Shown piece after piece: positions 30,999 through 46,897 of a DNA stretch of 47,288 nt (position 1 is the first letter of the stretch; every line of letters begins with the position of its first letter). The notes below the pieces were generated by a model, which worked only from the letters and a program-made list of their open reading frames with translations, made no database searches and had not been told where the DNA came from. The stretch covers positions 1-47,288 of the forward strand of contig CAINMN010000240.1 in assembly GCA_903850735.1 (NCBI GenBank). The letters run 5' to 3'. The stretch comes from an uncultured Burkholderiales bacterium. Its GTDB lineage: Bacteria > Pseudomonadota > Gammaproteobacteria > Burkholderiales > Burkholderiaceae_C. A program made the position numbers and the translations under genes.

Positions 30999-32258
30999 AT
31001 GCCACATACACCCTTCCGTCTTGCATCCCTGACCCAAAAATGCGCCGCAGCCTTGCTCAGTTTGGCGGCTGTCACAGCGCCCATGCACCTGAATGCACAA
31101 AACAAGGCCCCCACGGTCAATATCTCCGATGGCGTGGTCAAGATGGGCTTGCTGCTCGACATGAACAGCCTGTACGAAGATGTCGCAGGCATGGGCACCG
31201 TCACCGCCGTGAAAATGGCCATTGAAGACTTTGGCGGCAAAGTGCATGGCATGCCCATCGAGCTGGTCTATGCCGACCACCAGAACAAGGCCGACTTGGC
31301 AGGCACCAAGGCACGTGAATGGTTCGACACCCAAAAGGTTGACATGATTGGCGACGTGGCTGCCTCGGCCACCGCCCTGTCAGCGGCAGAAGTGGCCAAG
31401 CAAAAGAACAAGGTCATCATCATGAGTGGTCCTGGCACCTCGCGACTGACCAATGAAAATTGCTCTGCTGTCAGCGTGCACTACACCTGGGACACCTATG
31501 CGCTGTCGGCCGTGACCGGCCGCGGCGTGGTCAAGGGTGGCGGTGACTCGTGGTTCTTCATCACGGCGGATTACGCATTTGGCCACTCTCTGGAAAAAGA
31601 CGCCTCGGAAATCATCAAGTCCGAAGGCGGAAAAATTGTGGGCTCGGTCAAGCACCCCTTGAACACCCAAGACTTTTCATCCTTCATGCTGCAAGCCCAA
31701 GCCTCCAAAGCCAAAGTGGTGGGCTTGGCCAATGCAGGGGGTGACACCATCAATGCCATCAAGTCAGCCAACGAGTTTGGCCTGACCAAGAACCAGAAGC
31801 TGGCAGGCCTGCTGGTGTTCATCAACGATGTCCATGCCTTGGGCCTGAACGTCACCAAGGGCATGCAACTCACCGAGGCCTTCTACTGGGACATGAACGA
31901 TGAGACACGCAAGTTCTCGCGTCGCTTCTTCGAGCGCATGAAGAAGATGCCCAACATGCTGCAGTCTGGTTCTTATTCGTCCACCCTGCACTACCTGAAT
32001 GCGGTGAAAGCCACAGGCACGGATGACACCGCCACCGTCATGGCCTGGATGAAGGCCAACCCCATCAACGACATGTTCGTGAAGAACGGCCGCATCCGCG
32101 AAGACGGCCGCATGATGCGCGAAATGTACTTGTTTGAAGTGAAGGATCCGTCCGAGTCCAAGTACCCCTGGGACTACTTCAAGCTCAAGGCCACCATCCC
32201 CGCAGAACAAGCGTTCATGCCGGCCTCCAAGAGCGTGTGCCCCTTGCTCAAGAAATAA
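30999..32258 (+). CDS. LivK-like ABC transporter substrate-binding protein
   Basis: The 419-residue protein is a type I periplasmic binding protein of the branched-chain amino acid/amide class (Peripla_BP_6). The signal sequence runs to about residue 34 (cleavage near LNA-QNK). Blocks include VVKMGLLLDMNSLYEDVAG, MAIEDFGGKVHGMPIELVYADHQNKADLA, CSAVSVHYTWDTYALS and WFFITADYAFGHSLE. Members of this Burkholderiales branch more often serve aromatic or other carboxylates than amino acids, but that is family knowledge and not proof. No permease or ATPase gene is adjacent; the livHMGF set at 4494-8060 lacks a binding protein. A stem-loop follows immediately. Confidence 0.92.
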   Translation: MPHTPFRLASLTQKCAAALLSLAAVTAPMHLNAQNKAPTVNISDGVVKMGLLLDMNSLYEDVAGMGTVTAVKMAIEDFGGKVHGMPIELVYADHQNKADLAGTKAREWFDTQKVDMIGDVAASATALSAAEVAKQKNKVIIMSGPGTSRLTNENCSAVSVHYTWDTYALSAVTGRGVVKGGGDSWFFITADYAFGHSLEKDASEIIKSEGGKIVGSVKHPLNTQDFSSFMLQAQASKAKVVGLANAGGDTINAIKSANEFGLTKNQKLAGLLVFINDVHALGLNVTKGMQLTEAFYWDMNDETRKFSRRFFERMKKMPNMLQSGSYSSTLHYLNAVKATGTDDTATVMAWMKANPINDMFVKNGRIREDGRMMREMYLFEVKDPSESKYPWDYFKLKATIPAEQAFMPASKSVCPLLKK

Positions 32259-32284
32259 TTCAAGCGCCCTTCGGGGCGCTTGAA
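32259..32284 (+). terminator. stem-loop directly after the LivK-like gene
   Basis: Arms 32259-32269 and 32274-32284 pair perfectly over 11 bases around a TTCG tetraloop, starting on the base after the stop codon. No T-run follows (CATTGG), so it is more likely an mRNA 3'-end stabiliser or partial terminator than a strong intrinsic terminator. The SDR gene starts 13 bases later. This would let binding-protein mRNA accumulate above that of downstream enzymes. Confidence 0.6.
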
Positions 32285-32297
32285 CATTGGATGAGCC

Positions 32298-33131
32298 ATG
32301 AGACCTGTCGGTAGCTTGAACACACCCACCGATGGCTGCCTGGATGGCCGTGTCTGCCTGGTGCTGGGGGCTGGCGCCTTGTCCAAGGGCTGGGCGATTG
32401 GACAAGCGATAGCCATTGCTTATGCGCGTGCCGGCGCTCGGGTCATGGTGGGTGATCAGAACCTGGAAGCGGCGAATGCCACCGTGCGCTTCATCCAATC
32501 ACAAGGCGCCCAGGCCCAAGCGTGTGAGGTCGAGGTCACGAGCGAGGTGAGTGTTCAAAATGCCGTGTCAAACACTGTTTCGGCGTTTGGCGCCTTGCAT
32601 GTCTTGCACAACAATGTGGGCATTGGCAAGTCCGGCGACTCGGCGCAGACGACTGCGCTGGAATGGCAACGCATTTCAGATGCCAACCTGCTGGCATTGC
32701 ACCTTGCGTCCCAAGCGGCCATTCCTTGCATGCGCAAAGCGGGGGGTGGCGTCATCCTTTGCACCTCATCCATTGCGTCGCACCGCTATGTTGGCATTCC
32801 CCACTTGGCTTATGGCGTCACCAAGGCCGCAACCAATCAGTTTTGCAAGATGATGGCCGTGGAATACGCCCCTGACAACATCCGTGTGAATGCCTTGGTG
32901 GTGGGCCTGGTGGACACACCTAGAATCCGCAACACCCTGATGGGCACTTATGGCCAGGATGAAGAGGCCATGGTGCGCAGACGCAACGCTCAAATTCCAT
33001 TGGGCGAAATGGGCGACGCCTGGGACGTTGCCAATGCCGCCGTTTTTTTGGCCTCCGACCGCGCCCGCTTCATCTCGGGCATTGAGTTGGTCATTGATGG
33101 CGGCATGAGCGCCACCGTGCGCGGCGGCTAG
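32298..33131 (+). CDS. SDR family oxidoreductase
   Basis: The 277-residue protein is a classical short-chain dehydrogenase. The nucleotide loop is GAGALSKGWAIG (residues 24-35), NNVG is at 105-108, and the catalytic residues are Ser near 158, Tyr172 and Lys176 (AYGVTKAAT). The C-terminal FISGIELVIDGGMSA is typical. Asp53 in VGDQN at the end of the second strand suggests NAD(H) preference. It sits between the binding-protein gene and two acyl-CoA dehydrogenases, so it may act as a hydroxyacyl-CoA or alcohol dehydrogenase in the same pathway. The substrate cannot be named. Confidence 0.92.
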   Translation: MRPVGSLNTPTDGCLDGRVCLVLGAGALSKGWAIGQAIAIAYARAGARVMVGDQNLEAANATVRFIQSQGAQAQACEVEVTSEVSVQNAVSNTVSAFGALHVLHNNVGIGKSGDSAQTTALEWQRISDANLLALHLASQAAIPCMRKAGGGVILCTSSIASHRYVGIPHLAYGVTKAATNQFCKMMAVEYAPDNIRVNALVVGLVDTPRIRNTLMGTYGQDEEAMVRRRNAQIPLGEMGDAWDVANAAVFLASDRARFISGIELVIDGGMSATVRGG

Positions 33132-33149: not shown

Positions 33150-34307
33150 ATGATCCGACACCAACCTACCCTTGACGCCCTCCTGTCCGATGTGCGTGCC
33201 TTTGTCAGACACCAATGGCACCCCATAGAGCACGAGGTTGAAAAGCGCAACGAAGTTCCCGAAGAGATGGTTCAAGAGCTGCGCCAACGGGGCTACTTTG
33301 GCTGGAGCATTCCTGAGGCCTATGGGGGTCTGGGCCTCACCACCGAAGAATTGATCTTGGCTGCCTTCGAATTGTCACAGTCTTCAGTGGCGTTGCGGGC
33401 CCGTGTTGGAACCAACACCGGGATTGGCTCCGAGGCCTTGGTAGCCGATGGCACGGAGGCGCAAAAACAACGCTGGCTACCCGCGATGGCGCGCGGCGAG
33501 TTGACGGGCTGCCTCGCCTTGACCGAGCCAGATGCGGGATCCGAAGCCACCAATGTGCAAACCACTGCCCACAAAGAGGGTGACAGCTATGTACTGAACG
33601 GCCAAAAGTGCTACATCACCAACGCGCCAATTGCCGATGTGTTCACGGTGGTGGCTCGCACTGAGACAGGGACCCGTGGCAGCAATGGCTTGTCCGCCTT
33701 CATCGTCGAGCGAGGCACCCCTGGCTTGCGCACGGGCGCGCCGTACCAAAAGATGGGACAGGCGGGATCGCCTGTGTCGGATGTGTATTTTGACAATTGT
33801 CGAATTCCAGCCGACAACCTCATCGGAGGACAGGAAGGGGTGGGTTTCAAAACCATCATGAAAGTGCTGAACAAGCAGCGCATGCATTTGGCGGCCCTGT
33901 GCACCGGCCCTGCGGTGCGCATGCTCTACTTGGCCATGGCGCACACGCAAAAGCGCCAACAGTTTGGCCAGCCCGTAGGCAATTTTCAATTGATGCAGGC
34001 CATGATCGCGGACAGCCAAACTGAAATTTTTGCCGCCAAGTCCATGATTTTGGAGGCTGCGCGCGCCCGCGACCGCGGCGAAGATGTGGCGCTGTCCGCC
34101 TCGATGTGCAAATACTTCGCATCCGAAATGTGTGGCCGCGTGGCCGACCGCTGTGTGCAGATGTTCGGTGGGGCGGGTTATGTCGCCGACTTCAGTCCGA
34201 TCGAACGCTATTACCGGGATGTGCGCTTGTTTCGCTTGTACGAAGGCACCAGCCAAATTCACCAATTGAACATTGCCAAGCTGGTGCTGCGCGACCATGC
34301 ACTTTAA
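33150..34307 (+). CDS. acyl-CoA dehydrogenase (subunit 1 of a pair)
   Basis: The 385-residue flavoprotein has normal length for the short/medium-chain type. It shows LALTEPDAGSEATNVQ (flavin/substrate contact), YVLNGQKCYITNAPIAD, RQQFGQPVGNFQLMQ, QMFGGAGYV and the catalytic base Glu365 in RLYEGTSQIHQ. It starts 18 bases after the SDR stop. The next dehydrogenase gene begins inside its last four codons, so the two are translationally coupled. Adjacent dehydrogenase pairs are known to form mixed tetramers in steroid degradation; whether that holds here is inference. Confidence 0.93.
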   Translation: MIRHQPTLDALLSDVRAFVRHQWHPIEHEVEKRNEVPEEMVQELRQRGYFGWSIPEAYGGLGLTTEELILAAFELSQSSVALRARVGTNTGIGSEALVADGTEAQKQRWLPAMARGELTGCLALTEPDAGSEATNVQTTAHKEGDSYVLNGQKCYITNAPIADVFTVVARTETGTRGSNGLSAFIVERGTPGLRTGAPYQKMGQAGSPVSDVYFDNCRIPADNLIGGQEGVGFKTIMKVLNKQRMHLAALCTGPAVRMLYLAMAHTQKRQQFGQPVGNFQLMQAMIADSQTEIFAAKSMILEAARARDRGEDVALSASMCKYFASEMCGRVADRCVQMFGGAGYVADFSPIERYYRDVRLFRLYEGTSQIHQLNIAKLVLRDHAL

Positions 34308-35478
34308 GCATCTGAGCCCAGAGGATGGCCTGGTGGCTTTGCGAGAGCGGGTGCGCCAATTTGTAGATCAGGCCTGCATCCCCTTGGAGTCCAATGACTT
34401 GTCACACGATGTGGCCGCACTGGATCGCGTTTTGGCAAGTCTGCGCCCCCAAGCGCAAGCTGCAGGCTTGTACCTGCCGCAATTGCCCCCCTCACTGGGT
34501 GGCCTGGGTCTCAGTTGGGTAGAGCGCGCCGTCGTTCTGGAAGAAGCGGGTCGAAGTTTTCTGGCGCCTGGCGCCATGAATTGCGCGCCCCCCGATCAAC
34601 CGAACATGATCAGCCTGATGCGCCACGGCACACCGGGGCAAAAAGAGCGCTACCTCTTGCCCTTGGCGCAAGGAAAGGTGCGCTCGTGCTTTGCCATGAC
34701 CGAGCCCCAACCTGGCGCAGGCTCGGATCCCTCCATGCTCAAGACTTTCGCCACGCGCACGTCCAAGGGCTGGTCGATCACCGGGCACAAGTGGTTCATC
34801 ACCGGCGCCTCTGGCGCGGGTTTCGCCATTGTGCTGGCCATGACTGACGATGGGCCCACGCAGTTCATTGTGGAGACCCGCAACCCCGGCTACCAACTGC
34901 TGCGAACCATTGACGCCATGGACCCCTATGCCATTGGCGGGCATGGCGAGTTGTTGCTGCAAGATTGCTGCGTGGGCGCAGATGCCGTTTTGGGCGAAGT
35001 AGGACAAGGCCTGAGGGATGCGCAAGTCAGGCTGGAGCCTGCACGGTTGTCGCATTGCATTCGCTTCATTGGGCGTGCACGCCGTGCCCTGGAGATCGCG
35101 CAAGACTATGCGAACCAGCGCTCCTCCTTTGGTGCGCAGTTGTCTGACCTGCAGCAAATTCAGGCCATGGTGGCAGATTCCCACATGGACCTGCATGCCA
35201 GCCGCCTGATGACCTTGGACTGTGCCTCGCGCATGGATGCTGGGCAATCTGTCAAAACGGAATCGGCCATGACGAAAATTTTTGTCTCTGAAGCCGTTAA
35301 CCGGGTCGCCGACCGAGCGGCCCAGATGATGGGCGCACTGGGCATGTCAGCCGACACGGTCGTGTCCCTGATCGTGCGCGAGTTGCGGCCGTTTCGGATT
35401 TACGATGGTGCATCCGAATTGCACCGCGCCACGCTCGGTCGTCGCTTTTTAAAAGCCAACGTTTCCAACAAGGAGTGA
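34297..35478 (+). CDS. acyl-CoA dehydrogenase (subunit 2 of a pair), Asp in catalytic motif
   Basis: The 393-residue protein begins MHFKHLSPEDGLVALRERV. It has SCFAMTEPQPGAGSDPSML, WSITGHKWFITGASGAGFA and QRSSFGAQLSDLQQIQ. The segment that normally carries the catalytic Glu (YEGTSEI) reads RIYDGASELHR, with Asp, as in ACAD10/11-like dehydrogenases. ATG 34297 overlaps the end of the preceding gene by 11 bases; upstream in-frame residues belong to that gene's coding DNA. The gene differs clearly from the first dehydrogenase and is not a recent duplicate. It may be catalytic with altered specificity or a partner subunit. Confidence 0.9.
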   Translation: MHFKHLSPEDGLVALRERVRQFVDQACIPLESNDLSHDVAALDRVLASLRPQAQAAGLYLPQLPPSLGGLGLSWVERAVVLEEAGRSFLAPGAMNCAPPDQPNMISLMRHGTPGQKERYLLPLAQGKVRSCFAMTEPQPGAGSDPSMLKTFATRTSKGWSITGHKWFITGASGAGFAIVLAMTDDGPTQFIVETRNPGYQLLRTIDAMDPYAIGGHGELLLQDCCVGADAVLGEVGQGLRDAQVRLEPARLSHCIRFIGRARRALEIAQDYANQRSSFGAQLSDLQQIQAMVADSHMDLHASRLMTLDCASRMDAGQSVKTESAMTKIFVSEAVNRVADRAAQMMGALGMSADTVVSLIVRELRPFRIYDGASELHRATLGRRFLKANVSNKE

Positions 35479-35482
35479 ATTC

Positions 35483-36460
35483 ATGACCAAGAACTTTTCA
35501 TCGTTGCGTCGCTGCGCACTGTGCGTGCTTTGCGCCTGGACGGTGAGTGGCGCATTCGCCGCAGATTACCCCAGCCAGACTGTTCGCATCATCGTGCCCT
35601 TCCCCGCTGGAGGCAGTACCGACTTGGTAACACGCGCTTTGGCCACTGAGTTGGGTGCAGCGCTCAATCAAACCGTGGTGGTCGAAAACAAGGCCGGAGC
35701 AGGCAGCCTGATTGGCTCAGAGTTTGTCATCAAAGCCCCAGCAGACGGCTACACCGTCTTGATGGCGGGCCTGACCAATGTGTTCTTGCCCCATGTCCAT
35801 CAAAACTTGCGCTTTCATCCCATCGATGATTTGCAAGGCGTCGGCCTGGTGGCAGATTTGCCCAATGTACTGGCCGTCAATGCTGCAACGCCTTACAAAA
35901 AGTTGGATGAATTGATCAAGGCAGACAAACAAAAGCCAGGCAGTCTTTCATTTGCTTCCGCCGGCATTGCCACCCCCTCCCATTTGGTATGCGAGATGGT
36001 GAATCATCAAGCGGGCAGCAAGCTTGCGCATGTACCCTACAAAGGCAATGCGCCGGCGGTGGCCGACCTGATGGGCGGCCACATTCCTGTGATGTGCAAC
36101 AACCTGGGCGGCACCCTGCCCTACATGAACAGTGGCCAAATTCGCATTCTGGCGCAAACCGGCAAAACACGGTCTGTCGCTGTGCCCGACATTCCCACCT
36201 TTGGAGAGTTGGGCATTGCCGGCTTGGATGCAGGCCTCTGGATGGGGTTGGCGGTTCCCAAAGCAACCCCCAAGGATGTGGTTCAAAAGCTCAACCAGGC
36301 CTTGGCCAAAGCCATGGCGACCGACAGTTTGAAAGATAAGTTGGCGAAGCTTGGCGCAACGCCACTCCAACCGGCCCTCAGTGCCTTTGAGGACCGGGTC
36401 CGTCAAGACCGCAAAGCGTGGGATGCCATGCTGGGCACCCTGAACCTGCAGAGCAAATGA
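35483..36460 (+). CDS. Bug/TctC family periplasmic solute-binding protein
   Basis: The 325-residue protein starts with a Sec signal (RRCALCVLCAWTVSGAFA, cleavage before ADYPSQ). It then shows the Bug blocks VRIIVPFPAGGSTDLVTRALATELG, VVVENKAGAGSLIGSEFV and HVPYKGNAPAVADLMGGHIPV. It would capture a carboxylate in the periplasm. AAGGAGT precedes the ATG, only four bases after the dehydrogenase stop. Its own stop overlaps the CoA-transferase start (ATGA). A Bug protein directly coupled to a CoA-transferase suggests that the captured acid is the transferase substrate. No TctAB permease is present. Confidence 0.94.
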   Translation: MTKNFSSLRRCALCVLCAWTVSGAFAADYPSQTVRIIVPFPAGGSTDLVTRALATELGAALNQTVVVENKAGAGSLIGSEFVIKAPADGYTVLMAGLTNVFLPHVHQNLRFHPIDDLQGVGLVADLPNVLAVNAATPYKKLDELIKADKQKPGSLSFASAGIATPSHLVCEMVNHQAGSKLAHVPYKGNAPAVADLMGGHIPVMCNNLGGTLPYMNSGQIRILAQTGKTRSVAVPDIPTFGELGIAGLDAGLWMGLAVPKATPKDVVQKLNQALAKAMATDSLKDKLAKLGATPLQPALSAFEDRVRQDRKAWDAMLGTLNLQSK

Positions 36461-37671
36461 CCTCGACCGCCGGTCACTTCCCCCTCAAAGGGGTGCGCAT
36501 TCTTGACTTGGCCACCGTGGTTGCCGCCCCTTTCTCTGCCACATTGTGCGGCGACATGGGCGCAGAAGTGGTGAAGGTTGAATTGCCGCAAGGCGGGGAC
36601 CCTTTGCGGACCTTGGCGCCTGTTGACGGTGAGCACGCCCTGTTCTGGAAGGTCGGCAATCGTGGCAAAAAGGGCATCACACTGGATGTGCGCAAACCAG
36701 AAGGTCGACAACTTTTTTTGCAGATGATCCGCGAGTTCGATGTGCTGGTTGAAAATTTTCGAACAGGGACGCTGGATGGCTGGGGCTTGGACATGGCCAC
36801 CTTGCATCAACACAATCCCCATTTGATCGTGTTGCGCCTCACGGGCTTTGGCCAAACGGGCCCTTATGCCCAACGACCCGGCTTTGCCAGGATCTTTGAA
36901 GCCATGAGCGGGTTGACGTACATCACCGGAGAGCCAGATCGGCCCCCTCAGCACACCAATTACCCTTTGGGCGACGCCATTGCAGGTTTGTTTGGCGCCT
37001 TTGCCATTGCCACCGCTTTGGCGCAACGCAATGCGCTCCCCATCGAACAACGCTGCGGGGCGGAAATTGATCTGTCCGCCACCGAGGCCTTGTTTCGCCT
37101 GCTCGACCCGCTGGCGGCGGAGTGGCGCTTCAAAGGTGAGGCACGTGCTCGCGCAGGCTCGCGAGCGACTTACACCGCGCCTTCGAACGTCTTTCAAACG
37201 GAAGATGGCCACTGGATCACGGTGGTAGGCACGGGCAATCCGATTTTTGAGCGACTGTGCAAAGCCATGGACCGCCCCGACTTGCTGACAGACCCGCGCT
37301 TTGCCAACAATTTGCTGCGCACACAGAATTTGGTGGCGCTTGACGACATTCTGTCCGCCTGGTGCCGCAGCTGCCCTCTGAGCGTCATTCAGAAAAAATT
37401 CGATGCGGTCGAAATGCCCTACAGCCAGGTCAATTCGATCGCCGACGCTGCCAAGGACCCGCATTTTCAGCACCGTCAAGCCATCATCGACTTGCCTGAT
37501 CGCGATCTGGGGACTGTGCCAGCGCCCTGCATCGTGCCTAGATTTGTCGGGCTCGAGCGAGAGCCTCCAGCCACCGGACCCGCCACAGGCGAGCACAACT
37601 CTGAAATCTATGCCGCACTGGGCTTGACGTTGGCAGAGCAAGACCGCTTGCGATCTCTGGGCGTGATCTGA
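36457..37671 (+). CDS. class III CoA-transferase (CaiB/BaiF family)
   Basis: The 404-residue enzyme would move CoA between carboxylic acids. It has the N-terminal LKGVRILDLATVVAAPFSATLCGDMGAEVVKVE, the NRGKKGITLDVRKPEG strand, DVLVENFRTGTLDGWG, and LTGFGQTGPYAQRPGF. The acyl-carrying Asp is Asp173 in NYPLGDAIAGLFGA. The frame is open 13 codons upstream, but ATG 36457 overlaps the Bug gene stop by four bases and gives the normal N-terminus. It is the last gene of the plus-strand unit that begins with the SDR. Donor and acceptor acids are unknown. Confidence 0.94.
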   Translation: MTSTAGHFPLKGVRILDLATVVAAPFSATLCGDMGAEVVKVELPQGGDPLRTLAPVDGEHALFWKVGNRGKKGITLDVRKPEGRQLFLQMIREFDVLVENFRTGTLDGWGLDMATLHQHNPHLIVLRLTGFGQTGPYAQRPGFARIFEAMSGLTYITGEPDRPPQHTNYPLGDAIAGLFGAFAIATALAQRNALPIEQRCGAEIDLSATEALFRLLDPLAAEWRFKGEARARAGSRATYTAPSNVFQTEDGHWITVVGTGNPIFERLCKAMDRPDLLTDPRFANNLLRTQNLVALDDILSAWCRSCPLSVIQKKFDAVEMPYSQVNSIADAAKDPHFQHRQAIIDLPDRDLGTVPAPCIVPRFVGLEREPPATGPATGEHNSEIYAALGLTLAEQDRLRSLGVI

Positions 37672-37724: not shown

Positions 37725-37973
37725 ATGACCGACGCCGCCACTCGCCCGCCACTGCCTGACCATCTCTCCATTGACCCCCGCAGCCCGCATTACGTTGCCG
37801 AGGTGTTTGAGCACGATGTCGGCATCAAGTTCAACGGCAAAGAGCGTACCGATGTCGAGGAATACTGCATCAGTGAGTCTTGGGTCAAAGTGCCTGCAGG
37901 CAAGACCTTGGACCGCAAGGGCAAGCCGTTGCTGCTCAAACTCAAAGGCAAAGTCGAAGCCTATTACCGCTGA
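37725..37973 (+). CDS. DUF3297 family protein
   Basis: The 82-residue protein (MTDAATRPPLPDHLSIDPRS) is a small conserved protein. FNGKERTDVEEYCISE and the basic tail KGKPLLLKLKGKVEAYYR match what I know as DUF3297. No function is established and no catalytic motif is visible. It has its own likely promoter: CACAAT around 37684 could be a -10 element. It lies 53 bases after the CoA-transferase. Its last ten bases overlap the convergent VOC gene. Confidence 0.85.
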   Translation: MTDAATRPPLPDHLSIDPRSPHYVAEVFEHDVGIKFNGKERTDVEEYCISESWVKVPAGKTLDRKGKPLLLKLKGKVEAYYR

Positions 37974-38482: not shown

Positions 38483-38506
38483 GGCTGTGCTCCTTTGACG
38501 ATGGAT

Positions 38507-38887: not shown

Positions 38888-38890
38888 GGT

Positions 38891-39292: not shown

Positions 39293-39304
39293 CGGAAATG
39301 GCTT

Positions 39305-40909
39305 TTATTGTTCAGCATCCGCCAAAATCATGGCGGCACCTTTTTCTGCCACCATCAAGGTGGGCGCATTGGAGTTGCCCGATGTGCCGCTGGGCAAAAT
39401 GGAGGCATCTACGACACGCAGCCCTTGCACGCCGTGCACGCGCAGTCGCGGGTCGACCACCGTGTCTGAGCCCTGCCCCATTTGGCAGGTCCCCACCAGG
39501 TGGTAGCCAGACACCCCTTTGGCACGAGCATAGGCCAGCAATTGCTCGTCACTTTGCATGTCTTCGCCGGGCATGGTTTCATGGACACACCAAGGCTTCA
39601 AAGCCGGCATGTCCATGATCTTGCGCGCCAAGCGCAATCCCGCCAGGACGGCTTGGCGGTCTTGGTCAGCTTGCAAGTAATTGGGCGTGATGGCCGGGGC
39701 TTGCGCAGGGTCACGAGATTTGGCACGCACATGCCCTTTGCTTTCTGGAAACGAATGGTAGACGGCGATGGTCATGCCCCCCTGCACTTCCAGATCGTAG
39801 GTTCCCGGCTCGAAACTGCCAGGCGCAAAACTCAGTACCACATCCGGATGCGCTTGTTCTGGTGAGGTGCGCGCATAGGCCGCGCAAGTGCTCGCACCCA
39901 GGGTCAGGAGGCCTGTGCCTGTCAGGGCGTAATTCAGCAATTCACGCGCAAGCGAGAAGCCATGTGTGCGCTCATTCAGGGTACGAATGCCCTGCACCCG
40001 TTTGGCAATTCGAACGGAATAGTGGTCTCGCAGGTTTTCGCCCACCCCAGGGAGTTCTGTGTGAACGGGAATGCCCAGTTCACCCAACAAGGGCGCAGGG
40101 CCAATGCCAGACAGTTGAAGCAAATGCGGAGAGCGCACCGTGCCCAAAGAGACGATGACTTCGCGCCGGGCCTTCACGATGAAATGACCCGATGCCCCTT
40201 TCAAGCGGGCACCAACGGCACGAGGCCCATCCAAAATCAAATGCTCAGCCAAGGTGCCTGTCATGACCGTCAGGTTGGCGCGTCCTCGTGCCTGACGGAG
40301 GTAGGTTTGGGCTGGTCCGCCGCGAAACCGATTCAAGCGATTTTGATGAAAAGCTGCCGCACCTTCACGCCGAGGCCCATTGATCGAATCATTGATATGC
40401 AAGCCCGCCTCCTGACAGGCCTGCAAAAAAGCATCGCTCAATCGATGCCTTTCGAGAAAGGACGCGACGGGCAGGGGATGATCCGGCGAAGCACCCTCCA
40501 GATTTTCAATCTGTTGGTAAATAGGCAAGGCCTCTTCATAAGACCAGCCCTCACAACCTTGACGCACCCATCGCGCATGCTCCGCAGGCGAGCTGCGGAC
40601 ATACAACATCCCATTGAGAGAACCTGTGCCCCCCAACATTCGGCCCTGTGGGTAGGCGATGGTGCGTCCGTTGTTGAGTGGGTCGGGCTCCGAGCTGTAA
40701 CGCCAGCTCAATTCGGGGTGGTCAATCAGCTTGAGATAGCCCGCAGGGATGTGGATGAAGGGAGATCGGTCAGGGGGCCCCGCTTCCACCAACAAAACTT
40801 TGTAACGGCCACAGGCCGAGAGGCGGTTGGCCAGGACACAGCCGGCACTGCCAGCGCCCAGCACGATGTAATCAAAAACGTTCTCAGTGGGAGGAAGAAT
40901 CACAGCCAT
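39305..40909 (-). CDS. GMC family FAD-dependent oxidoreductase (choline dehydrogenase-like)
   Basis: The 534-residue flavoenzyme would oxidise an alcohol. It begins with the FAD loop [19 protein letters not shown], then [17 protein letters not shown], and the second GMC signature region with [18 protein letters not shown]. The active-site pair is visible as the His of [11 protein letters not shown] and the Asn of [19 protein letters not shown] 40909 ([16 protein letters not shown]) is preferred; the frame is open 14 codons upstream with no better ribosome-binding site. It heads the minus-strand unit with the hotdog pair and VOC gene and diverges from the TRAP genes. The alcohol could be an intermediate in the same pathway. 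Confidence 0.92.
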
Positions 40910-41047: not shown

Positions 41048-42040
41048 ATGAAGAAAAGAGCTTGGTTGGCCTTGGCATCTGCTGCCTTGGCATTGGGGGT
41101 CAGCAGTTTCGCGCCTGGTGTTCACGCGCAAAACAAGGTTGTCTGGAAGGCCTCCGATGTTCATCCGATGGGCTATCCGACGGTAGAGGCCATTGTTCGC
41201 ATGGGCAAGAAGCTGGAAACCGCCACCAATGGCCGAATCAGCATCCAGATGTATCCCTCCATGCAGCTGGGTGGCGAAAAAGAAATGATTGAGCAGGCGC
41301 AAATCGGTGCCCTGCAAATTGCTCGCATTTCTGTGGGCGCCATGGGACCCGTGGTCGACGAGGTCAACGTGTTCAACCTGCCCTTTGTCTTCCGTGATGA
41401 AGCGCACATGCGCAAAGTCATTGACGGCCCCATCGGCCAAGAACTTTTGGAGCGCATGACCAATGGCCCCGGATCACGCCTGGTGGCCTTGGGCTGGATG
41501 GATGCCGGCACCCGAAACGTCTATGCCAAAAAGGCGGTGACCGCTCCCGCAGACCTCAAGGGCATGAAAATCCGCATGATGGGTAACCCCCTGTTTGTGG
41601 AAACCATGAACGCCATGGGCGGCAATGGCGTGGCCATGGGATTCAATGAGTTGTTCTCAGCACTTCAAACCGGCGTGGTGGATGGCGCAGAAAACAACCC
41701 GCCCACCTTGCTGGCACAAAACCATTACACCGTCAGCAAGGTCATGAGCCTGACCGGACACTTGATCATTCCTGAAATTTTTGTGTTTTCCAAGCGCTCA
41801 TGGGATGCCCTGTCCAAAGACGATCAAGCCCTGGTAAAGAAATTGGCAGCTGAAGCGCAACAGGAACAGCGCGTTTTGTGGGACGCCTACACCCAAGAAG
41901 CAGAAACCAAGCTGAAAGCTGCTGGGGTTCAATTCGTGCCTGCAGACAAAGCAGCTTTCTACAAAGCCACGCAACCTATCCGCGAAAAGTACGGCTCCAA
42001 ATACGCCGCTTTGATCAAGCGGATTGAAGACACCAAGTAA
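41048..42040 (+). CDS. dctP: TRAP transporter periplasmic binding protein DctP
   Basis: The 330-residue protein has a Sec signal (KKRAWLALASAALALGVSS, cleavage near VHA-QNKVVW). DctP-family blocks are SDVHPMGYPTVEAIVRMGKKLETATNGRISIQMYPSMQLG, PADLKGMKIRMMGNP with the conserved carboxylate-binding Arg, and ALQTGVVDGAENNPPTLL. It would capture an organic acid for the DctQM permease. An open frame extends far upstream, but ATG 41048 has GGAGA five bases before it and a proper signal peptide. A strong stem-loop separates it from dctQ. Ligand identity is unknown. Confidence 0.95.
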   Translation: MKKRAWLALASAALALGVSSFAPGVHAQNKVVWKASDVHPMGYPTVEAIVRMGKKLETATNGRISIQMYPSMQLGGEKEMIEQAQIGALQIARISVGAMGPVVDEVNVFNLPFVFRDEAHMRKVIDGPIGQELLERMTNGPGSRLVALGWMDAGTRNVYAKKAVTAPADLKGMKIRMMGNPLFVETMNAMGGNGVAMGFNELFSALQTGVVDGAENNPPTLLAQNHYTVSKVMSLTGHLIIPEIFVFSKRSWDALSKDDQALVKKLAAEAQQEQRVLWDAYTQEAETKLKAAGVQFVPADKAAFYKATQPIREKYGSKYAALIKRIEDTK

Positions 42041-42107: not shown

Positions 42108-42632
42108 ATGACCCTGAAGCGCCACTATGCCCAAGCGATGGAAAGGCTTTACATCCTTTGCGTTGTGTTGTCGGGCGTTGCCCTCGTTGCCATCACATTG
42201 ATCATTCCGTTTGGTGTGTTCATGCGCTATGTCATGAACAATCCACAATCTTGGCCCGAGCCCGCCTCGGTGGTCATGATGGTTTTATTCTCATTTGTCG
42301 GCGGAGCCGCGGTCTATCGGGCCAATGTTCACATTGCCGTTGAGTCGCTCACACAAGCAGTCAGTCCGCGGATACGCGGGTACATGGGCCAGATCGTTCA
42401 ATTGCTCATGGCTTTGATCGCCATTTTCATGATCGGGTATGGGTTGGAGCTCTGCCAAATCACTTGGCACCAGTCGGTACCAGAATTTCCAGGTCTCCCC
42501 GTGGGCTTGGTCTACGGCCCCATTCCTTTAGGGGGTGCATTGACACTGTTGTTCTTGATTGAAAAAGTTTGGGTTGGCCCTGCACCCCGGACCTCCATCA
42601 TGTTCAGCGATGAAGCTGTAGAAATGGAGTAA
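42108..42632 (+). CDS. dctQ: TRAP transporter small permease DctQ
   Basis: The 174-residue membrane protein has four hydrophobic segments and the DctQ-type features VFMRYVMNNPQSWPEPASVVMMV and VYRANVHIAVESL. It would stabilise the large permease DctM. ATGAGGAAAACCC precedes the ATG at 42108. dctM starts three bases after its stop. Length and layout are normal. Confidence 0.92.
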   Translation: MTLKRHYAQAMERLYILCVVLSGVALVAITLIIPFGVFMRYVMNNPQSWPEPASVVMMVLFSFVGGAAVYRANVHIAVESLTQAVSPRIRGYMGQIVQLLMALIAIFMIGYGLELCQITWHQSVPEFPGLPVGLVYGPIPLGGALTLLFLIEKVWVGPAPRTSIMFSDEAVEME

Positions 42633-42635: not shown

Positions 42636-43916
42636 ATGGATGTGCTGGTTTTATTGGGCTCTTTCGCATTGTTTTGCGCCATAGGCATGCCTGTTGCCTA
42701 TGCCCTTGGAATGTCTGCCATTGCTGCGGCTTGGTATGTGGACATTCCATTGGAAGCCATCATGTTGAAAATTTCGGATGGCACTGACGACTTCTCCCTG
42801 TTGGCCATCCCCTTCTTCGTCTTGGCGGGTGGCATCATGGCTGAGGGTGGCATGGCCATTCGCCTGATCAATTTGGCGCGCATTTTTGTGGGATTCATTC
42901 GCGGCGGGCTGGCCATGGTGAACATCATCGCCTCCAGCTTTTTTGGGTGTATTTCGGGCTCTTCTGTGGCGGACACCTCGGCCATTGGTTCGGTCATGAT
43001 CCCGCAAATGGTGAAGGCCGGCTTCCCGCGGGTTTTTGCCACCAACGTGACGATTTGCGGCTCAGTTCAAGCCCTGCTGATTCCGCCCTCACACAATGCA
43101 GTCATTTATTCGCTGGCCGCTGGCGGGACGGTTTCTGTCGCCCACCTCTTTTTGGCGGGGATTCTGCCAGGGCTGATGTTTGGCGTTTGTTTGATTGGTT
43201 TGGTGTTGTGGGTTTCTCACAAGCGCGGCTATCCCAAGGGTGAGCCCGTCAAACTGAAAGACGTTCCTAAAATTTTCACCGATGCCCTGTGGGGTCTGGT
43301 GACGGTGTTCATCATCATGGGCGGCATTCTGTCCGGTGTGTTTACTCCCACCGAGTCTGCAGCCGTCGCCTGTGTTTATGCCTTTTTGGTGACCTTCCTT
43401 GTCTATCGCGACTACAAATGGCGCGAGTTGCCACGACTGGTGCATCGTGTGGTGAAAACCGTGTCCATGGTCATGATGCTGATTGGGTTCTCCGTGGCCT
43501 TTGGCTACATGATGACCATGATGCAAATTCCGGCCAAGATCACTTACTTTTTCCTGTCCATTTCAGAAAACAAATATGTTTTCCTGTTTTTGGTGAACAT
43601 CTTGCTGCTGTTGCTCGGCACCTTCATGGACCTGGCGCCCATGCTGTTGATTTGCACACCCATCTTCATGCCGGTGATTGCCAAGCTGGGCATTGATCCC
43701 GTTCATTTCGGCATGATCATGATTCTGAACCTGGGCATTGGCTTGATCACACCGCCCGTGGGCCCCACGCTCTTTGTGGGGTGTGCCGTAGGCAAAGTCA
43801 CCATGGAACAAGTGTCCAAAGAATTGTGGCCGTTTTATGGCGCCATGTGCATCGCCTTGCTCTTGGTCACTTATGTGCCTGCCATTTCGCTGTGGCTTCC
43901 CGGACTGATGAAATAG
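42636..43916 (+). CDS. dctM: TRAP transporter large permease DctM
   Basis: The 426-residue sodium-coupled permease subunit has about twelve hydrophobic segments. Family blocks include FSLLAIPFFVLAGGIMAEGGMA, GGLAMVNIIASSFFGCISGSSVADTSAIGSVMIP, IPPSHNAVIYSLAAGGTVSVAHLFLAGILPG and NLGIGLITPPVGPTLFVGCAVGKV. With DctP and DctQ it forms a complete secondary transporter. A GTG-start dehydrogenase gene begins two bases after its TAG stop, so the imported acid may be handled by that enzyme. Confidence 0.95.
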   Translation: MDVLVLLGSFALFCAIGMPVAYALGMSAIAAAWYVDIPLEAIMLKISDGTDDFSLLAIPFFVLAGGIMAEGGMAIRLINLARIFVGFIRGGLAMVNIIASSFFGCISGSSVADTSAIGSVMIPQMVKAGFPRVFATNVTICGSVQALLIPPSHNAVIYSLAAGGTVSVAHLFLAGILPGLMFGVCLIGLVLWVSHKRGYPKGEPVKLKDVPKIFTDALWGLVTVFIIMGGILSGVFTPTESAAVACVYAFLVTFLVYRDYKWRELPRLVHRVVKTVSMVMMLIGFSVAFGYMMTMMQIPAKITYFFLSISENKYVFLFLVNILLLLLGTFMDLAPMLLICTPIFMPVIAKLGIDPVHFGMIMILNLGIGLITPPVGPTLFVGCAVGKVTMEQVSKELWPFYGAMCIALLLVTYVPAISLWLPGLMK

Positions 43917-43918
43917 CT

Positions 43919-44923
43919 GTGCCACGCGTTCTGCTCACCCATTCGCCCGCACAACTGCAAGGCTATTACGGTCAGAGGGCCTTGAATGCTTTGCAACAAG
44001 CTGCAGAGGTGCGTTTGTGCCAAGACGCTGAGGGAGTGTCAGTAGATGCGCTGATTTCACTGGCACAAGGTTGTGATTACGTTGTGTCGTACCGTCAGAC
44101 AGCCTTTCCCAAAGAAACCCTCGACATGCTTCCCCTCAGTGTCAAGGCCGTTCTGCGGTGTGCTGTGGATATTCGCAACATTGACGTCCAAGCGGCCAGC
44201 GACTGCGGGATTTTGGTGTCACAAGCAAGCCCAGGCTTCATGGCATCGGTCGCAGAGTGGGTTGTCAGCGCCATGCTGGAAATGAATCGGGGCCTTGGCG
44301 CATCAACAGCCGCTTATCACAAGGGTATGCAACCTCCAGCCGTGATGGGGCGTGAATTGCGCGGCAGCACACTGGGCCTGATTGGGTACGGTCGCATCAG
44401 CCAGTACCTGTGCCCCTTGGCCCAGGCTTTCGGCATGCGTGTCATGGTCACAGACCCTTGGCTGAAGATTGAAGCCACAGGCATTGTTCAAACTGATCTG
44501 GACACGCTGCTTTCCAAGGCGGATCATGTGGTTTGTTTGGCGGTAGCGAACGAAGAAACAGAAAACCTTCTGTCTGCCGCGCAATTCCAGCGCATGAAAG
44601 CCGGGGCCTGCTTTACCAATGCCTCACGGGGCAACCTGGTGGATGAGGCAGCCTTGCTCCAAGCGCTCGAGTCGGGTCATTTGACCGCTGCCGCCCTGGA
44701 TGTCGGCAGAGGACCGGATCAGATGCCCTCCTTGTCTTTGGCACACCATCCTCGTGTGGTGGCCTCGCCTCATATTGGCGGATTGACCCCCGCAGCGATT
44801 GAGCACCAATCGATGGAGACGGTCGCGCAGGTCAAGGCGCTTCTACAAGGACAAATCCCTGTGGGTGTGGTCAATGCAGCCCATGGGACGCGTTGGCGAA
44901 ACGCGCTTTCACTCACAGCGTAG
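43919..44923 (+). CDS. D-2-hydroxyacid dehydrogenase family protein, variant active site
   Basis: The 334-residue protein is of the D-isomer-specific 2-hydroxyacid dehydrogenase fold. The cofactor loop reads GLIGYGRISQYL, with Ser at the last Gly position. Catalytic Arg237 is in NASRGNLVDEAALL and His285 in SPHIGGLTPAA. The Glu that completes the usual Arg-Glu-His triad should follow LDV but the sequence is LDVGRGPDQMPS, placing Pro266 there. I recall similar DVGRxPDQMP motifs in Burkholderiales relatives, so it is likely a subfamily. The start is GTG 43919, two bases after dctM; no ATG gives the family start MPRVLLTHSP. Its end overlaps the convergent DUF1330 gene by 11 bases. Confidence 0.88.
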   Translation: MPRVLLTHSPAQLQGYYGQRALNALQQAAEVRLCQDAEGVSVDALISLAQGCDYVVSYRQTAFPKETLDMLPLSVKAVLRCAVDIRNIDVQAASDCGILVSQASPGFMASVAEWVVSAMLEMNRGLGASTAAYHKGMQPPAVMGRELRGSTLGLIGYGRISQYLCPLAQAFGMRVMVTDPWLKIEATGIVQTDLDTLLSKADHVVCLAVANEETENLLSAAQFQRMKAGACFTNASRGNLVDEAALLQALESGHLTAAALDVGRGPDQMPSLSLAHHPRVVASPHIGGLTPAAIEHQSMETVAQVKALLQGQIPVGVVNAAHGTRWRNALSLTA

Positions 44924-45215
44924 CTTCGCCACCTTCCACAATCACATTCTCGACAATGCCACCACCGTTGCGTCGGTGCGAGGCGGCTTGGGTATAGGCT
45001 GGCGATTGAAAGCACTGGATAGCCGCTTCCATGGTGGGGAACTCCAGCACCACAAAGCGGTGAAAGGTTTCGGGCCCTTCCATGATCTGGTAGCGACCTC
45101 CGCGCGCCAGGACCTTGGCGCCGTATTGGGCGATGATGCCGGGCACTTGGTCGGTGTAGCGCTTGTAAGCCACGGGGTCGTTCACGATGCAACGGGAAAT
45201 CCAGTAAGCAGGCAT
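44913..45215 (-). CDS. DUF1330 family small protein (second copy type)
   Basis: The 100-residue protein begins MPAYWISRCIVNDPVAYKRY and shows GAKVLARGGRYQIMEG and RFVVLEFPTMEAAIQCFQSPAYTQA, the DUF1330 pattern. It is related to, but clearly diverged from, the protein at 23062-23355. Its function is unestablished. ATG 45215 has AAGGA upstream; the frame is open 32 codons further but without family-like residues. It is the last gene of the unit DUF3237-aldolase-DUF1330 and overlaps the convergent dehydrogenase by 11 bases. Confidence 0.85.
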   Translation of the reverse strand: MPAYWISRCIVNDPVAYKRYTDQVPGIIAQYGAKVLARGGRYQIMEGPETFHRFVVLEFPTMEAAIQCFQSPAYTQAASHRRNGGGIVENVIVEGGEATL

Positions 45216-45237
45216 GTTGGCATCCTTCAGAATTGTT

Positions 45238-46353
45238 TCAAAGCAGTGCACCGCGCGCACTGATGGGCCAAATGGCCTCCACATGGCCGTTGCGGACGCA
45301 GACCAATTCATCGTACAAATTCACTGTGGGATCACAATGGCCTGGCACCAAGAGCAAAGCATCGCCAAGCTGCAGCTTGGTTGAGGGTGAGACCTGCAAA
45401 ACGCCGTGCTCATCCGATGCCTTGAGGAACTTCAAATCGGGACGTTGCCACACCACAGGCATGCCACTGTCCACGCTCGAGGCTTTCAAGCCCGCATCGA
45501 CAATGGCGCGATCCGCCGTCGGTTGGCTCATGACCGTGGTGCGCACAAACAGCGCGTGCTCAAACATCAGGTCATCAGGTCCCGGATGGTTGTCTCGATA
45601 GTCGCGGTCCATGAACACATAGGAGCCCGCTTGAACTTCATTGAAAACACCCGAATCCCGTTCATGGAGAAAGGTGCCGGTCCCTGCCCCGGTGATTCGC
45701 TCGCAAGGAATCCCTTCTGCAAGAAGGGCGTCACGCATCTCTTGCGCCGTGCGCGTGGCTTGCGCAATGGCTTGTAGACGCTCTTCTGGCAAACGCATGT
45801 GTTGCGCACCGCCGTGGTAACAATGCAGGCCTGCAAATCGCAAGGGTGGGCTGGACACAATCTCGCGCGCCAGTTTCAATGTGTCCTCACCGGGAGATGC
45901 GCCACAGCGGTTGGCACCAACATTGACCTCCACATACACATCCAGAGCCACTTGGGCCTTTTGCGACTGTTCTCGCAAAAGCGTCACCTGCTGCGGGTGA
46001 TCGACTAACACGCCGATGCGGGCACGCTGAGCCAGCGCCAGAAGCTTGGCCACTTTGGAGGGGGACACCACCTGGTTGGTCACCAAAACGTCTTGGATGC
46101 CGGCCTCGACAAAAACAGCGGCTTCACTGACTTTTTGACAACAGATGCCCACAGCACCCAGGGCGATCTGCCGTTTGGCGATTTCAGGGCATTTGTGGCT
46201 CTTGGCATGGGCGCGTAGGCGGACACCCTTTTCGCTCAGGGCGTCTGCCATGCGCTTGAGGTTTCGCTCGAACGCATCCAGGTCGAGAATCAAGGCTGGC
46301 GTATCGATGGACTCGACAGCATCTCCAATTTGGGCGGCATGCCATGGGCTCAT
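45238..46353 (-). CDS. D-threonine/3-hydroxyaspartate aldolase-like PLP enzyme (DSD1 family)
   Basis: The 371-residue enzyme is a fold-type III PLP protein. The PLP Lys is probably Lys51 in RAHAKSHKCPEIA. GICCQKVSEAAVF and DVLVTNQVV follow, with GAGTGTFLHERDSGVFNEVQAGSYVFMD in the middle. The metal-binding HCDPT is in LVPGHCDPTVNLYD. The tail VEAIWPISARG closely resembles that of 3-hydroxyaspartate aldolases (BhcC type) as I remember them. Such enzymes split beta-hydroxy-D-amino acids or 3-hydroxyaspartate into glycine and an aldehyde or glyoxylate; D-serine dehydratase is the other option. A TRAP transporter and a hydroxyacid dehydrogenase lie next door on the other strand. Confidence 0.87.
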   Translation of the reverse strand: MSPWHAAQIGDAVESIDTPALILDLDAFERNLKRMADALSEKGVRLRAHAKSHKCPEIAKRQIALGAVGICCQKVSEAAVFVEAGIQDVLVTNQVVSPSKVAKLLALAQRARIGVLVDHPQQVTLLREQSQKAQVALDVYVEVNVGANRCGASPGEDTLKLAREIVSSPPLRFAGLHCYHGGAQHMRLPEERLQAIAQATRTAQEMRDALLAEGIPCERITGAGTGTFLHERDSGVFNEVQAGSYVFMDRDYRDNHPGPDDLMFEHALFVRTTVMSQPTADRAIVDAGLKASSVDSGMPVVWQRPDLKFLKASDEHGVLQVSPSTKLQLGDALLLVPGHCDPTVNLYDELVCVRNGHVEAIWPISARGALL

Positions 46354-46429
46354 GTGTCTACAGGCCGGGCCTGCTCCTCGTTGTTTTCAACATGGTATCT
46401 CAGACTTTCTGAATGCAGCAATTGGTCCT

Positions 46430-46897
46430 TCAAGCCACTTCAAAGAAGCGCATCACCACCTTGTCCGGGTGACGTGCGCCCGTGCCGATGAACAAACGCT
46501 CTGCGATCCAGGAAAGCGCGGGGCTGGCGGTTTCAAAACTGGGCGAGCATCGAAAATAGACGGTCGATGGGTCCACCGGTTCACCCCGAATGATTTTGGC
46601 CATGACTTCGGGTGAAGCCGTGCGCACGGCTCGGTTGGTGACAAAAATCATGTCGCCCGCATCGGTTTCGATCAAATAGCGTGCGTCCAGTTCGGCCATC
46701 GATGGACCCAGCAACAATTGAAAATCGGCACCGCCAGACAAGACGCGGCCACACCATCCCTGCGCTTCCACCGTGCCGCCTAAAATGGGGATCACCCGGC
46801 GCACACCGTGATGGGTTTTGCCCACTTCTTGGGGCTTGTCCACTTGAACCGACAAATCTGCAAAGAACTTCAACTCGGGTGTAGGCAAGGTGTGCAT
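46430..46897 (-). CDS. DUF3237 family protein
   Basis: The 155-residue protein matches the DUF3237 pattern: PELKFFADLSVQVDKPQEVG, RRVIPILGGTVEAQGWCGRVLSGGADFQLL, ARYLIETDAGDMIFVTNRAVR and FETASPALSWIAERLFIGTGARHPDKVVMRFFEV. No enzyme activity is established for this beta-barrel family, although it is often found in catabolic clusters. It heads the minus-strand unit followed by the aldolase (76-base gap). Its ATG overlaps the candidate ATG of the divergent hydrolase within the palindrome CATG at 46895-46898. Confidence 0.87.
   Translation of the reverse strand: MHTLPTPELKFFADLSVQVDKPQEVGKTHHGVRRVIPILGGTVEAQGWCGRVLSGGADFQLLLGPSMAELDARYLIETDAGDMIFVTNRAVRTASPEVMAKIIRGEPVDPSTVYFRCSPSFETASPALSWIAERLFIGTGARHPDKVVMRFFEVA

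Follow-up and report, generated by a model that had tools for sequence, protein, structure and literature searches.

Positions 30,999 to 46,897 of the window (the whole stretch of 47,288 nucleotides analysed here, which is contig C240 of a 3.09 Mb Burkholderiales genome bin with 382 contigs, 95.8% complete and 6.3% contaminated) hold a patchwork locus with one recurrent acyl-CoA dehydrogenase (ACAD) cassette, for which no description was found in the open-licence literature, as judged by title and start of abstract. The genes, named as in Table 1, run in the order LivK, SDR, ACAD1, ACAD2, Bug, CaiB and DUF3297 on the plus strand; VOC, MaoCa, MaoCb and GMC on the minus strand; DctP, DctQ, DctM and a D-2-hydroxyacid dehydrogenase gene (2HADH) on the plus strand; and DUF1330, DTA and DUF3237 on the minus strand. 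Comparison with a sister genome, G492, shows a backbone common to both, consisting of LivF/G/M/H-type genes and a CoA ligase gene farther left in the window, LivK, SDR, VOC-MaoCa-MaoCb-GMC and DUF1330-DTA, in which the window carries two further blocks, the ACAD1-ACAD2-Bug-CaiB cassette and a TRAP transporter with 2HADH. We propose, with a probability of roughly 45%, that this is a composite catabolic locus of shared backbone and two blocks for the CoA-dependent oxidation of an imported, doubly charged acid; the substrate would most likely be a short dicarboxylic or otherwise doubly charged acid.

Contig C73 of G492 (50.9 kb) is collinear with window positions 5,003-32,281 at 83-90% DNA identity, the LivF/G/M/H-type and CoA ligase region included. 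Further DNA matches follow in order at 77-78% identity: 32,314-33,131 (SDR), 37,743-40,879 (DUF3297, VOC, MaoCa, MaoCb and GMC) and 44,919-46,386 (DUF1330 and DTA). The corresponding protein identities are 97-98% for LivK, 95% for VOC, 90% for GMC, 88% for DUF3297, 86% for SDR and DUF1330, 82% for DTA, 74% for MaoCa and 72% for MaoCb. The intervals between these matches differ. LivK and SDR are separated by 32 bp in the window and by 2.3 kb with two other dehydrogenase genes in G492; between SDR and DUF3297 the window has the 4.6 kb ACAD1-ACAD2-Bug-CaiB block (33,150-37,671), whereas G492 has 6.8 kb of other genes (L175 9656-16453), with a CHASE2-adenylate cyclase, a FecR protein, a cNMP-binding protein and an alpha/beta hydrolase. 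GMC and DUF1330 flank 4.0 kb of TRAP and 2HADH genes in the window and only 24 bp in G492, so that DTA-DUF1330-GMC-MaoCb-MaoCa-VOC can be read there as one six-gene run. Upstream of DTA, G492 has DctP-like (38%) and DctM-like (35%) genes of its own and a 3-hydroxyisobutyrate-dehydrogenase-like gene; searches of all four pieces of the G492 contig found neither DUF3237 nor the window 2HADH. No 12-mers are common to the block edges within the stretches compared. MaoCb is present in 2 of 84 genomes of the genus, the window genome and G492. The original prediction, made from the letters of the window, had taken the region as one island; this holds for LivK, SDR, VOC, MaoCa, MaoCb, GMC, DUF1330 and DTA, which stand together in G492, but not for the ACAD and TRAP-2HADH blocks, which are absent there.

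The two dehydrogenases at the locus in G492 have the large and small subunits of the PimC-PimD pimeloyl-CoA dehydrogenase as their best NCBIfam models, both below cut-off. The large protein scores 332 bits with pimC_large (cut-off 624) and has Tyr-Gly-Gly-Thr instead of Tyr-Glu-Gly-Thr; the small one scores 158 bits with pimD_small (cut-off 653), is without the Tyr-Glu-Gly motif and did not match the Pfam N-terminal domain. The window locus has no such pair, its ACAD1-ACAD2 genes lying across SDR from that position; a relative of the large protein (43% identity) is found at C268 of the window genome. It is the G492 pair, not ACAD1-ACAD2, that looks like the heteromeric type meant by the original prediction. 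Window and G492 together form a natural experiment, in which the same hydratase and oxidoreductase genes are combined with two different dehydrogenase pairs.

Relatives of the cassette were sought by scanning a species-genome collection with an ACAD2 alignment that already contained four cassette members, and the best 80 (L041-L120) of at least 577 confirmed relatives were taken. Eighteen loci with ACAD2 identity of at least 60% (L015, L030, L031 and L041-L055, with L042 and L045 cut by contig ends) are cassette loci; three of these, in G097, on the Polaromonas plasmid pW11NP2 and on a Variovorax plasmid, came from earlier searches. The hosts are Ramlibacter, Variovorax, Noviherbaspirillum, Polaromonas, Achromobacter, Bordetella, Advenella, Alcaligenes, a gammaproteobacterial bin and G097. 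With presence taken as at least 40% identity over half the protein (at least 30% for IclR and alcohol dehydrogenase), ACAD1 and a Bug protein accompany ACAD2 in all 18. CaiB is present in nine and an NDP-forming (nucleoside-diphosphate-forming) acyl-CoA synthetase (Succ_CoA_lig and ATP-grasp_5) in the other nine, with no locus having both; IclR homologues occur at 17 loci, and 11 have a relative of a zinc-type alcohol dehydrogenase. LivK is found once (pW11NP2), and SDR, VOC, MaoCa, MaoCb, GMC, DctP, DctQ, DctM, 2HADH, DUF1330, DTA and DUF3237 in none of the 18 over the stretch available. ACAD2 above 55% identity occurs in 1 of 149 other genomes of the family sample (G097) and in none of 40 other genomes of the genus, where the best match is 47%. 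Given these loci without the other window genes, and this rarity in the family and genus samples, ACAD1-ACAD2-Bug is a Burkholderiales cassette and an accessory module of its own. The original prediction had named conserved co-occurrence in other Burkholderiales as its check and consistent splitting of the units in relatives as its refutation: two of the blocks do split off, and ACAD1-ACAD2-Bug is what stays together in all 18 outside loci.

The plasmid pW11NP2 (52 kb, Arctic; L030 8649-18336) has the complete ACAD cassette together with LivK and CoA ligase genes inside a 10 kb stretch. The similarity to the window extends to LivK (55% identity), the ligase (52%), ACAD1 (81%), ACAD2 (70%), Bug (66%) and CaiB (64%), but no MaoC, GMC, TRAP or aldolase genes are present in the stretch examined. 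A paper on the plasmid names the ligase and the LivK-type protein, and proposes a role in membrane remodelling for the ligase (PMC6015842). In Ramlibacter albus two TauE/SafE family genes follow the cassette (L041 13327-14800), a possible hint at a sulfur-containing substrate.

ACAD1 has Tyr364-Glu365-Gly and Arg83 invariant in 10 of 10 aligned members, and Arg83 aligns with Arg94 of human glutaryl-CoA dehydrogenase (GCDH), which is Arg97 in the Burkholderia enzyme. The window genome has a GCDH of its own at C187, identified by 753 bits to 3gnc and 560 to 1sir, and it shares with ACAD1 the same Arg and Tyr-Glu positions (the equivalents of Arg94 and Tyr369-Glu370); BLASTP pairs the two arginines without a local gap, at an overall identity of 31%. 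The fetched loci gave 133 distinct full-length ACADs, a set that is not random and leaves out short and broken open reading frames, and 25 of them have Arg in the Arg94 column: 22 of 22 ACAD1-like sequences (those scoring at least 500 bits with the ACAD1 profile, namely 21 ACAD1 proteins plus a paralogue encoded at C50), the genome's GCDH and 2 of 110 others. One of these two is encoded on an Antarctobacter plasmid directly after MaoCb-MaoCa and is 45% identical to ACAD1. In GCDH this arginine itself binds the terminal carboxylate of the substrate. The tyrosine of the GCDH motif is reported to touch the same carboxylate and to hydrogen-bond the Arg94-type arginine (PMC3169403). ACAD1 is not a GCDH by sequence, the sole GCDH among its PDB matches at E 1e-60 being 3mpi, with 222 bits. 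With the NCBIfam GCDH model NF045552 it scores 250 of 470 bits, a model that the genome's true GCDH fails too (216), and with that for 3-sulfinopropionyl-CoA desulfinase 260.5 of 600, with Glu365 retained. Arg83 is a hint of the type of substrate, not a family assignment, since ACAD1 is only 31% identical to GCDH. For CaiB the best NCBIfam model is succinate-glutarate CoA-transferase, at 240 of 750 bits, far under the cut-off. The acid was originally suggested to be branched or alicyclic; the residues checked speak instead for an acyl chain with a second negative group. The ACAD1 paralogue in the window genome (G000:C50:27112-28221, L139) likewise has the glutaryl-CoA-type arginine.

ACAD2, whose residues are numbered from codon 34,309, is closest to ACAD11 in a profile search (2wbi, 257.6 bits; the best others are 4hr3 with 241.4 and 2dvl with 226.4), and in a single-sequence search 2dvl (171.3 bits) and 2wbi (171.2) tie. 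In the known ACAD11/LvaC pathway a kinase makes the phosphate of the 4-phosphoacyl-CoA substrate. The catalytic residue of ACAD11 is reported as Asp753, with Arg626, His634 and Arg637 holding the 4-phosphate (PMC12440821; the PDB chain is numbered one lower). In the HMMER alignment ACAD2 Asp366, Arg241, His249 and Arg252 correspond to these four, and the Asp and the Arg/His/Arg clamp are kept in 84 of 84 aligned homologues, cassette and non-cassette. Cassette-type ACAD2 proteins have nearly fixed differences from the distant homologues, for example at positions 82, 97, 98, 248 and 368. Arg82 was considered as a cassette-specific, glutarate-type arginine and was dropped, as alignments place it off the GCDH Arg94 column.

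A single-pass LvaA-like kinase profile built from three seeds found a kinase within 3 kb of 43 of 57 ACAD2 homologues at 45-52% identity and 9.3 kb away in one; none was found in the other 13, some of whose loci are short. None was found in the window, or in the stretches examined for all 26 close relatives (the 18 cassette loci and 8 of 8 homologues at 55-58%). The plainest reading of this distribution is that the ACAD2 branch would handle an acid already bearing a negative group. Elsewhere in the window genome (G000:C349:3214-5563, L134) an LvaA-like kinase gene is followed by an ACAD gene, 34% identical to ACAD2, the arrangement known from 4-hydroxy acid catabolism. Another ACAD, at G000:C52 and 46% identical to ACAD2, has no kinase on its stretch either.

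The hydration step would fall to the MaoCa-MaoCb pair. The original prediction of two hotdog proteins is borne out for MaoCa by Pfam MaoC; MaoCb (38,891-39,292) had no Pfam match, and its family profile matched the R-specific enoyl-CoA hydratase structure 5cpg weakly (E-value 5.8e-4). Profile-profile comparison of MaoCb with MaoCa gave a probability of 3.6%, and single-sequence structure models were poor (predicted local distance difference test, pLDDT, 49 for MaoCb and 43 for MaoCa). Outside the genus 17 MaoCb matches were found (11 plasmid records and 6 genomes), and nine loci were fetched, from Azospirillum, Roseovarius, Antarctobacter and six Burkholderiales genomes; MaoCb directly precedes MaoCa in all nine and in G492. 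Asp28 and His33 of MaoCa are present in 10 of 10 aligned sequences, and R-specific enoyl-CoA hydratases are among its PDB matches. MaoCb is without the Asp/His motif and has fixed residues of its own, including Arg67, Gly70, His73, Gln76, Glu100 and Arg105. The layout is that of heteromeric MaoC proteins, with adjacent genes, one with and one without the motif, and the two look like an active/inactive pair. Thiolase and DUF35/OB-fold genes lie in the same stretch in seven of the nine loci; in the window, queries with either found nothing next to the pair. GMC genes with 40-43% identity occur at three of these nine loci. GMC was rejected as a marker, its first-listed plasmid match (47%, Antarctobacter pSMS3-2) being without an annotated MaoC gene within 8 kb.

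The pathway that we propose would begin with import of an organic acid by Bug (with a presumed tripartite tricarboxylate permease encoded elsewhere) and/or LivK. CaiB would move CoA onto the acid from a donor such as succinyl-CoA; in other carriers its place is taken by the NDP-forming CoA ligase. ACAD1 may then form the alpha,beta-double bond, with Arg83 near the distal carboxylate as in GCDH, and ACAD2 may oxidise a related intermediate whose negative group, at C4 or close to it, would be held by the Arg/His/Arg clamp. MaoCa, as the active subunit, and MaoCb, as its non-catalytic partner, would add water; SDR would oxidise the hydroxyacyl-CoA, and FadB-like and thiolase genes at 1,095-4,426 may provide the last steps. 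We infer all of these reactions, their order and the charged, probably dicarboxylic nature of the acid from co-travelling genes and kept residues. The general claim of the original prediction, uptake and CoA-dependent breakdown of an organic acid, fits the gene families, and family searches alone give these genes family names only. If the proposal is true, a catabolic route can be recognised by this cassette in Achromobacter, Bordetella, Variovorax, Ramlibacter, Polaromonas and other bacteria, and an ACAD11-type enzyme, known for 4-phosphoacyl-CoA, would gain a second, kinase-free use.

Several points weigh against a composite locus for a doubly charged acid. The backbone is seen in a single sister genome, and a comparison of two genomes fits either state of the locus as the older one; the source genome is itself a fragmented bin, with 382 contigs and 6.3% contamination. 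ACAD1 is only 31% identical to GCDH, CaiB is far below every NCBIfam transferase cut-off shown, and no regulator gene was identified at the window cassette. The clamp is common to all ACAD10/11-type sequences sampled, so its conservation does not indicate a changed substrate; the kinase at C349 could act in trans. We regard as doubtful the farther-reaching proposal that ACAD1-ACAD2-Bug, with CaiB or the NDP-forming ligase, is an undescribed exchangeable module, in which a kinase-less ACAD11-type branch would have been re-purposed for acids with a C4/C5 negative charge of their own and ACAD1 would independently have gained a glutaryl-CoA-type arginine. Such a module would have been placed in resident loci that elsewhere carry another dehydrogenase pair, so that an exchange of the oxidation step would give a conserved hydration operon a different substrate.

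Since the genome has the C349 kinase with its adjoining ACAD, a kinase acting in trans is the main rival to an ACAD2 branch using a pre-charged acid. The locus would then serve 4-hydroxy-acid (levulinate-like) catabolism, with ACAD2 acting on a 4-phosphoacyl-CoA, the kinase encoded elsewhere and ACAD1 carrying out ordinary beta-oxidation of the product. ACAD11 as the nearest solved relative of ACAD2 in the profile search, and a catalytic Asp and clamp kept in 84 of 84, are as expected for such a route. It sits less well with the kinase search, which found none in the window, in any of the 18 cassette loci or in any of the 8 next-nearest over the stretches examined, whereas 43 of the 57 distant homologues have a kinase gene no farther than 3 kb away; CaiB and Bug seem better suited to doubly charged carboxylic acids than to hydroxy acids; we consider it unlikely, though the strongest of the alternatives. 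Ordinary clustering, that is, independent neighbouring catabolic operons with no shared substrate, is less probable again. The blocks lie on alternating strands, DctPQM are together in 12 of 12 related loci, in one of which a 2HADH of comparable identity follows DctM, and no other gene type of window 37.9-47 kb occurs in any of the 12 neighbourhoods examined around the nearest DTA homologues from other genera, all of which such clustering accommodates. It leaves unexplained why LivK, SDR, VOC, MaoCa, MaoCb, GMC, DUF1330 and DTA stand together in G492 and why the ACAD cassette of pW11NP2 lies inside the same 10 kb as LivK and CoA ligase genes.

Least probable of those weighed is one acquired island that would break down a bulky acid, branched or alicyclic, by heteromeric dehydrogenase and hydratase enzymes like those of steroid side-chain degradation. 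The gene pairs do exist, and the window resembles the steroid systems in its adjacent dehydrogenase genes and adjacent MaoC-like genes, including what looks like an active/inactive hydratase pair; the PimC/PimD-like pair at the G492 locus, and the thiolase and DUF35/OB-fold genes in seven of nine loci of MaoC-pair relatives, also agree with it. Steroid alpha2beta2 acyl-CoA dehydrogenases are described as carrying the catalytic glutamate in one subunit only, and the hydratase-aldolase systems as having thiolase and DUF35 genes (PMC8399759). Both window ACADs, unlike these, keep a catalytic acid (ACAD1 Glu365 in 10 of 10, ACAD2 Asp366 in 84 of 84), no DUF35/OB-fold or thiolase match stands beside the window hydratases, and the blocks are split in relatives. 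A steroid-type heteromeric ACAD1-ACAD2 pair was therefore rejected: the analogy drawn in the original prediction fails for the dehydrogenases because both keep the catalytic acid, and survives in outline only for the hydratases. The catalytic-residue test that replaces it is applicable to other paired acyl-CoA dehydrogenases.

Known systems for doubly charged acids resemble the cassette in part. In the gcdR-gcdH-gcoT genes of Pseudomonas putida a dehydrogenase gene adjoins that of a CoA-transferase for the free acid (PMC6667623), and enzymes of the CaiB type are reported to convert glutarate and succinyl-CoA to glutaryl-CoA (PMC7645780); the cassette differs in its second ACAD and Bug, and the regulators beside cassettes elsewhere are IclR-like, not LysR. 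The 3-sulfinopropionate/dithiodipropionate locus of Advenella mimigardefordensis (MIM_c31380-31430) combines genes for a CoA-transferase of family III, one ACAD-family protein and two TctC (Bug) proteins, and serves an acid with a second charged group, like the acid proposed here (PMC5373536); this likeness is one of published gene content, the proteins being set beside the cassette by description only. Its single ACAD-family protein is a desulfinase without the catalytic Glu (AGG for YEG; PMC8360864), and ACAD2 has no counterpart there. Neither the GcdH nor the Advenella layout includes an ACAD11-type partner, as far as the portions of these accounts available to us extend. LvaA-LvaC and ACAD10-ACAD11 share with ACAD2 the catalytic Asp and the reported 4-phosphate-binding residues; the cassette, unlike them, has no kinase gene in or near it, and pairs ACAD2 with ACAD1, Bug and a CoA-activating enzyme.

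The TRAP-2HADH genes and the aldolase-like gene are probably side inputs, not steps of the main chain. DctP, DctQ and DctM are consecutive in the window, and the triplet is intact at all 12 loci whose DctP is 59-77% identical to the window protein; 2HADH (54%) directly follows DctM in one of these (L160), and the other window genes at the 12 loci are just distant Bug, SDR, DctM or 2HADH family members. The nearest DctP entries in the PDB include 4xfe and 4x04, which were reportedly solved with a uronate. Uronate uptake was considered for the TRAP block and not adopted, as a literature search returned no paper in support of that ligand. DTA belongs to the family of the 3-hydroxyaspartate-aldolase-like enzyme originally named, but matches D-threonine aldolase structures (7dib, 372 bits; 4v15, 352) better than it does D-3-hydroxyaspartate aldolase (6qkb, 337), and stays far below the cut-off of the NCBIfam BhcC equivalog (427.9 of 690 bits). 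In the 12 neighbourhoods of its best homologues (family sample, outside the genus), TRAP, 2HADH, MaoC, GMC, VOC, DUF1330 and DUF3237 were found in none, and the window genes present are just Bug, CaiB, FadB and LivK family members. DTA was accordingly rejected as a link between blocks, unsupported by all 12 neighbourhoods, although it stays with GMC, MaoC and VOC in G492.

LivK stands alone at the left edge of the locus, and the LivF/G/M/H-type genes and acyl-CoA ligase gene at 4,494-9,820 are its likely partners. Two ABC ATPase and two permease genes occupy 4,494-8,105, and the ligase gene adjoins them at 8,102-9,820. The ligase passes the NCBIfam model for 3-(methylthio)propionyl-CoA ligase (1009.5 bits; cut-off 822), so the ABC-ligase run may serve an acid that contains sulfur or has a short chain.

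Table 1. Genes of the locus and of the putative LivK partners, with coordinates in the window.
Feature	Position	Strand	Basis
LivK-like ABC substrate-binding protein	30999..32258	+	Peripla_BP_6, Pfam 352.9 bits
SDR oxidoreductase	32298..33131	+	Pfam adh_short_C2
ACAD1, canonical acyl-CoA dehydrogenase	33150..34307	+	Pfam; Tyr364-Glu365, Arg83
ACAD2, ACAD10/11-LvaC-type acyl-CoA dehydrogenase	34297..35478	+	Pfam; ACAD11 top in profile search; start inferred
Bug (TctC) substrate-binding protein	35483..36460	+	Pfam 235.5 bits
CaiB/BaiF-type class III CoA-transferase	36418..37671	+	Pfam CoA_transf_3
DUF3297 gene, between CoA-transferase and VOC genes	37725..37973	+	Pfam PF11730, 133.7 bits
VOC (glyoxalase-like) protein	37964..38482	-	Pfam
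MaoCa, hydratase subunit with D-x-N-P-x-H motif	38507..38887	-	Pfam MaoC
MaoCb, putative partner without D-x-N-P-x-H motif, directly before MaoCa	38891..39292	-	Gene order; weak profile match to 5cpg
GMC oxidoreductase, choline-dehydrogenase-like, below subfamily cut-off	39305..40909	-	Pfam, NCBIfam
DctP, TRAP substrate-binding protein	41048..42040	+	Pfam on longer open reading frame; nearest PDB 4xfe, 4ng7, 4x04
DctQ, TRAP small permease	42108..42632	+	Pfam
DctM, TRAP large permease	42636..43916	+	Pfam; TIGR00786 above cut-off
D-2-hydroxyacid dehydrogenase (2HADH)	43919..44923	+	Pfam; start inferred
DUF1330 protein, likely start 45,215	44913..45311	-	Pfam on 44,913-45,215
DTA, pyridoxal-phosphate-dependent (PLP) D-threonine-aldolase-like protein	45238..46353	-	Pfam, structure-library comparison
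DUF3237 protein	46430..46897	-	Pfam 144.8 bits
LivF/G/M/H-type ABC ATPase and permease genes and acyl-CoA ligase	4494..9820	-	Pfam

A Pfam search of 30,999-46,897 recovered every gene family named in the original prediction: Peripla_BP_6, SDR, two acyl-CoA dehydrogenases, TctC, CoA_transf_3, glyoxalase/VOC, MaoC, the GMC N- and C-terminal domains, DctP/DctQ/DctM, 2-Hacid_dh, Ala_racemase_N with D-ser_dehydrat, DUF3237 and DUF1330. The earlier gene list had missed the DUF3297 gene (37,725-37,973), which is present in 17 of 41 genomes of the genus, the window's own included. The two dehydrogenase genes do overlap as described, the overlap being 11 bases with the ACAD2 start inferred here, an in-frame ATG at 34,297. 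Within same-strand runs the intergenic gaps are at most 76 bases, and some are negative; promoter and terminator scans gave results at chance level. The genes scanned in the 9.8-27 kb part of the window include SelO, IspA, a PpiC-type isomerase, a U32 peptidase and PurL. A second DUF1330 protein is encoded at 23062-23442, adjoining the gene of a thiamine-diphosphate enzyme.

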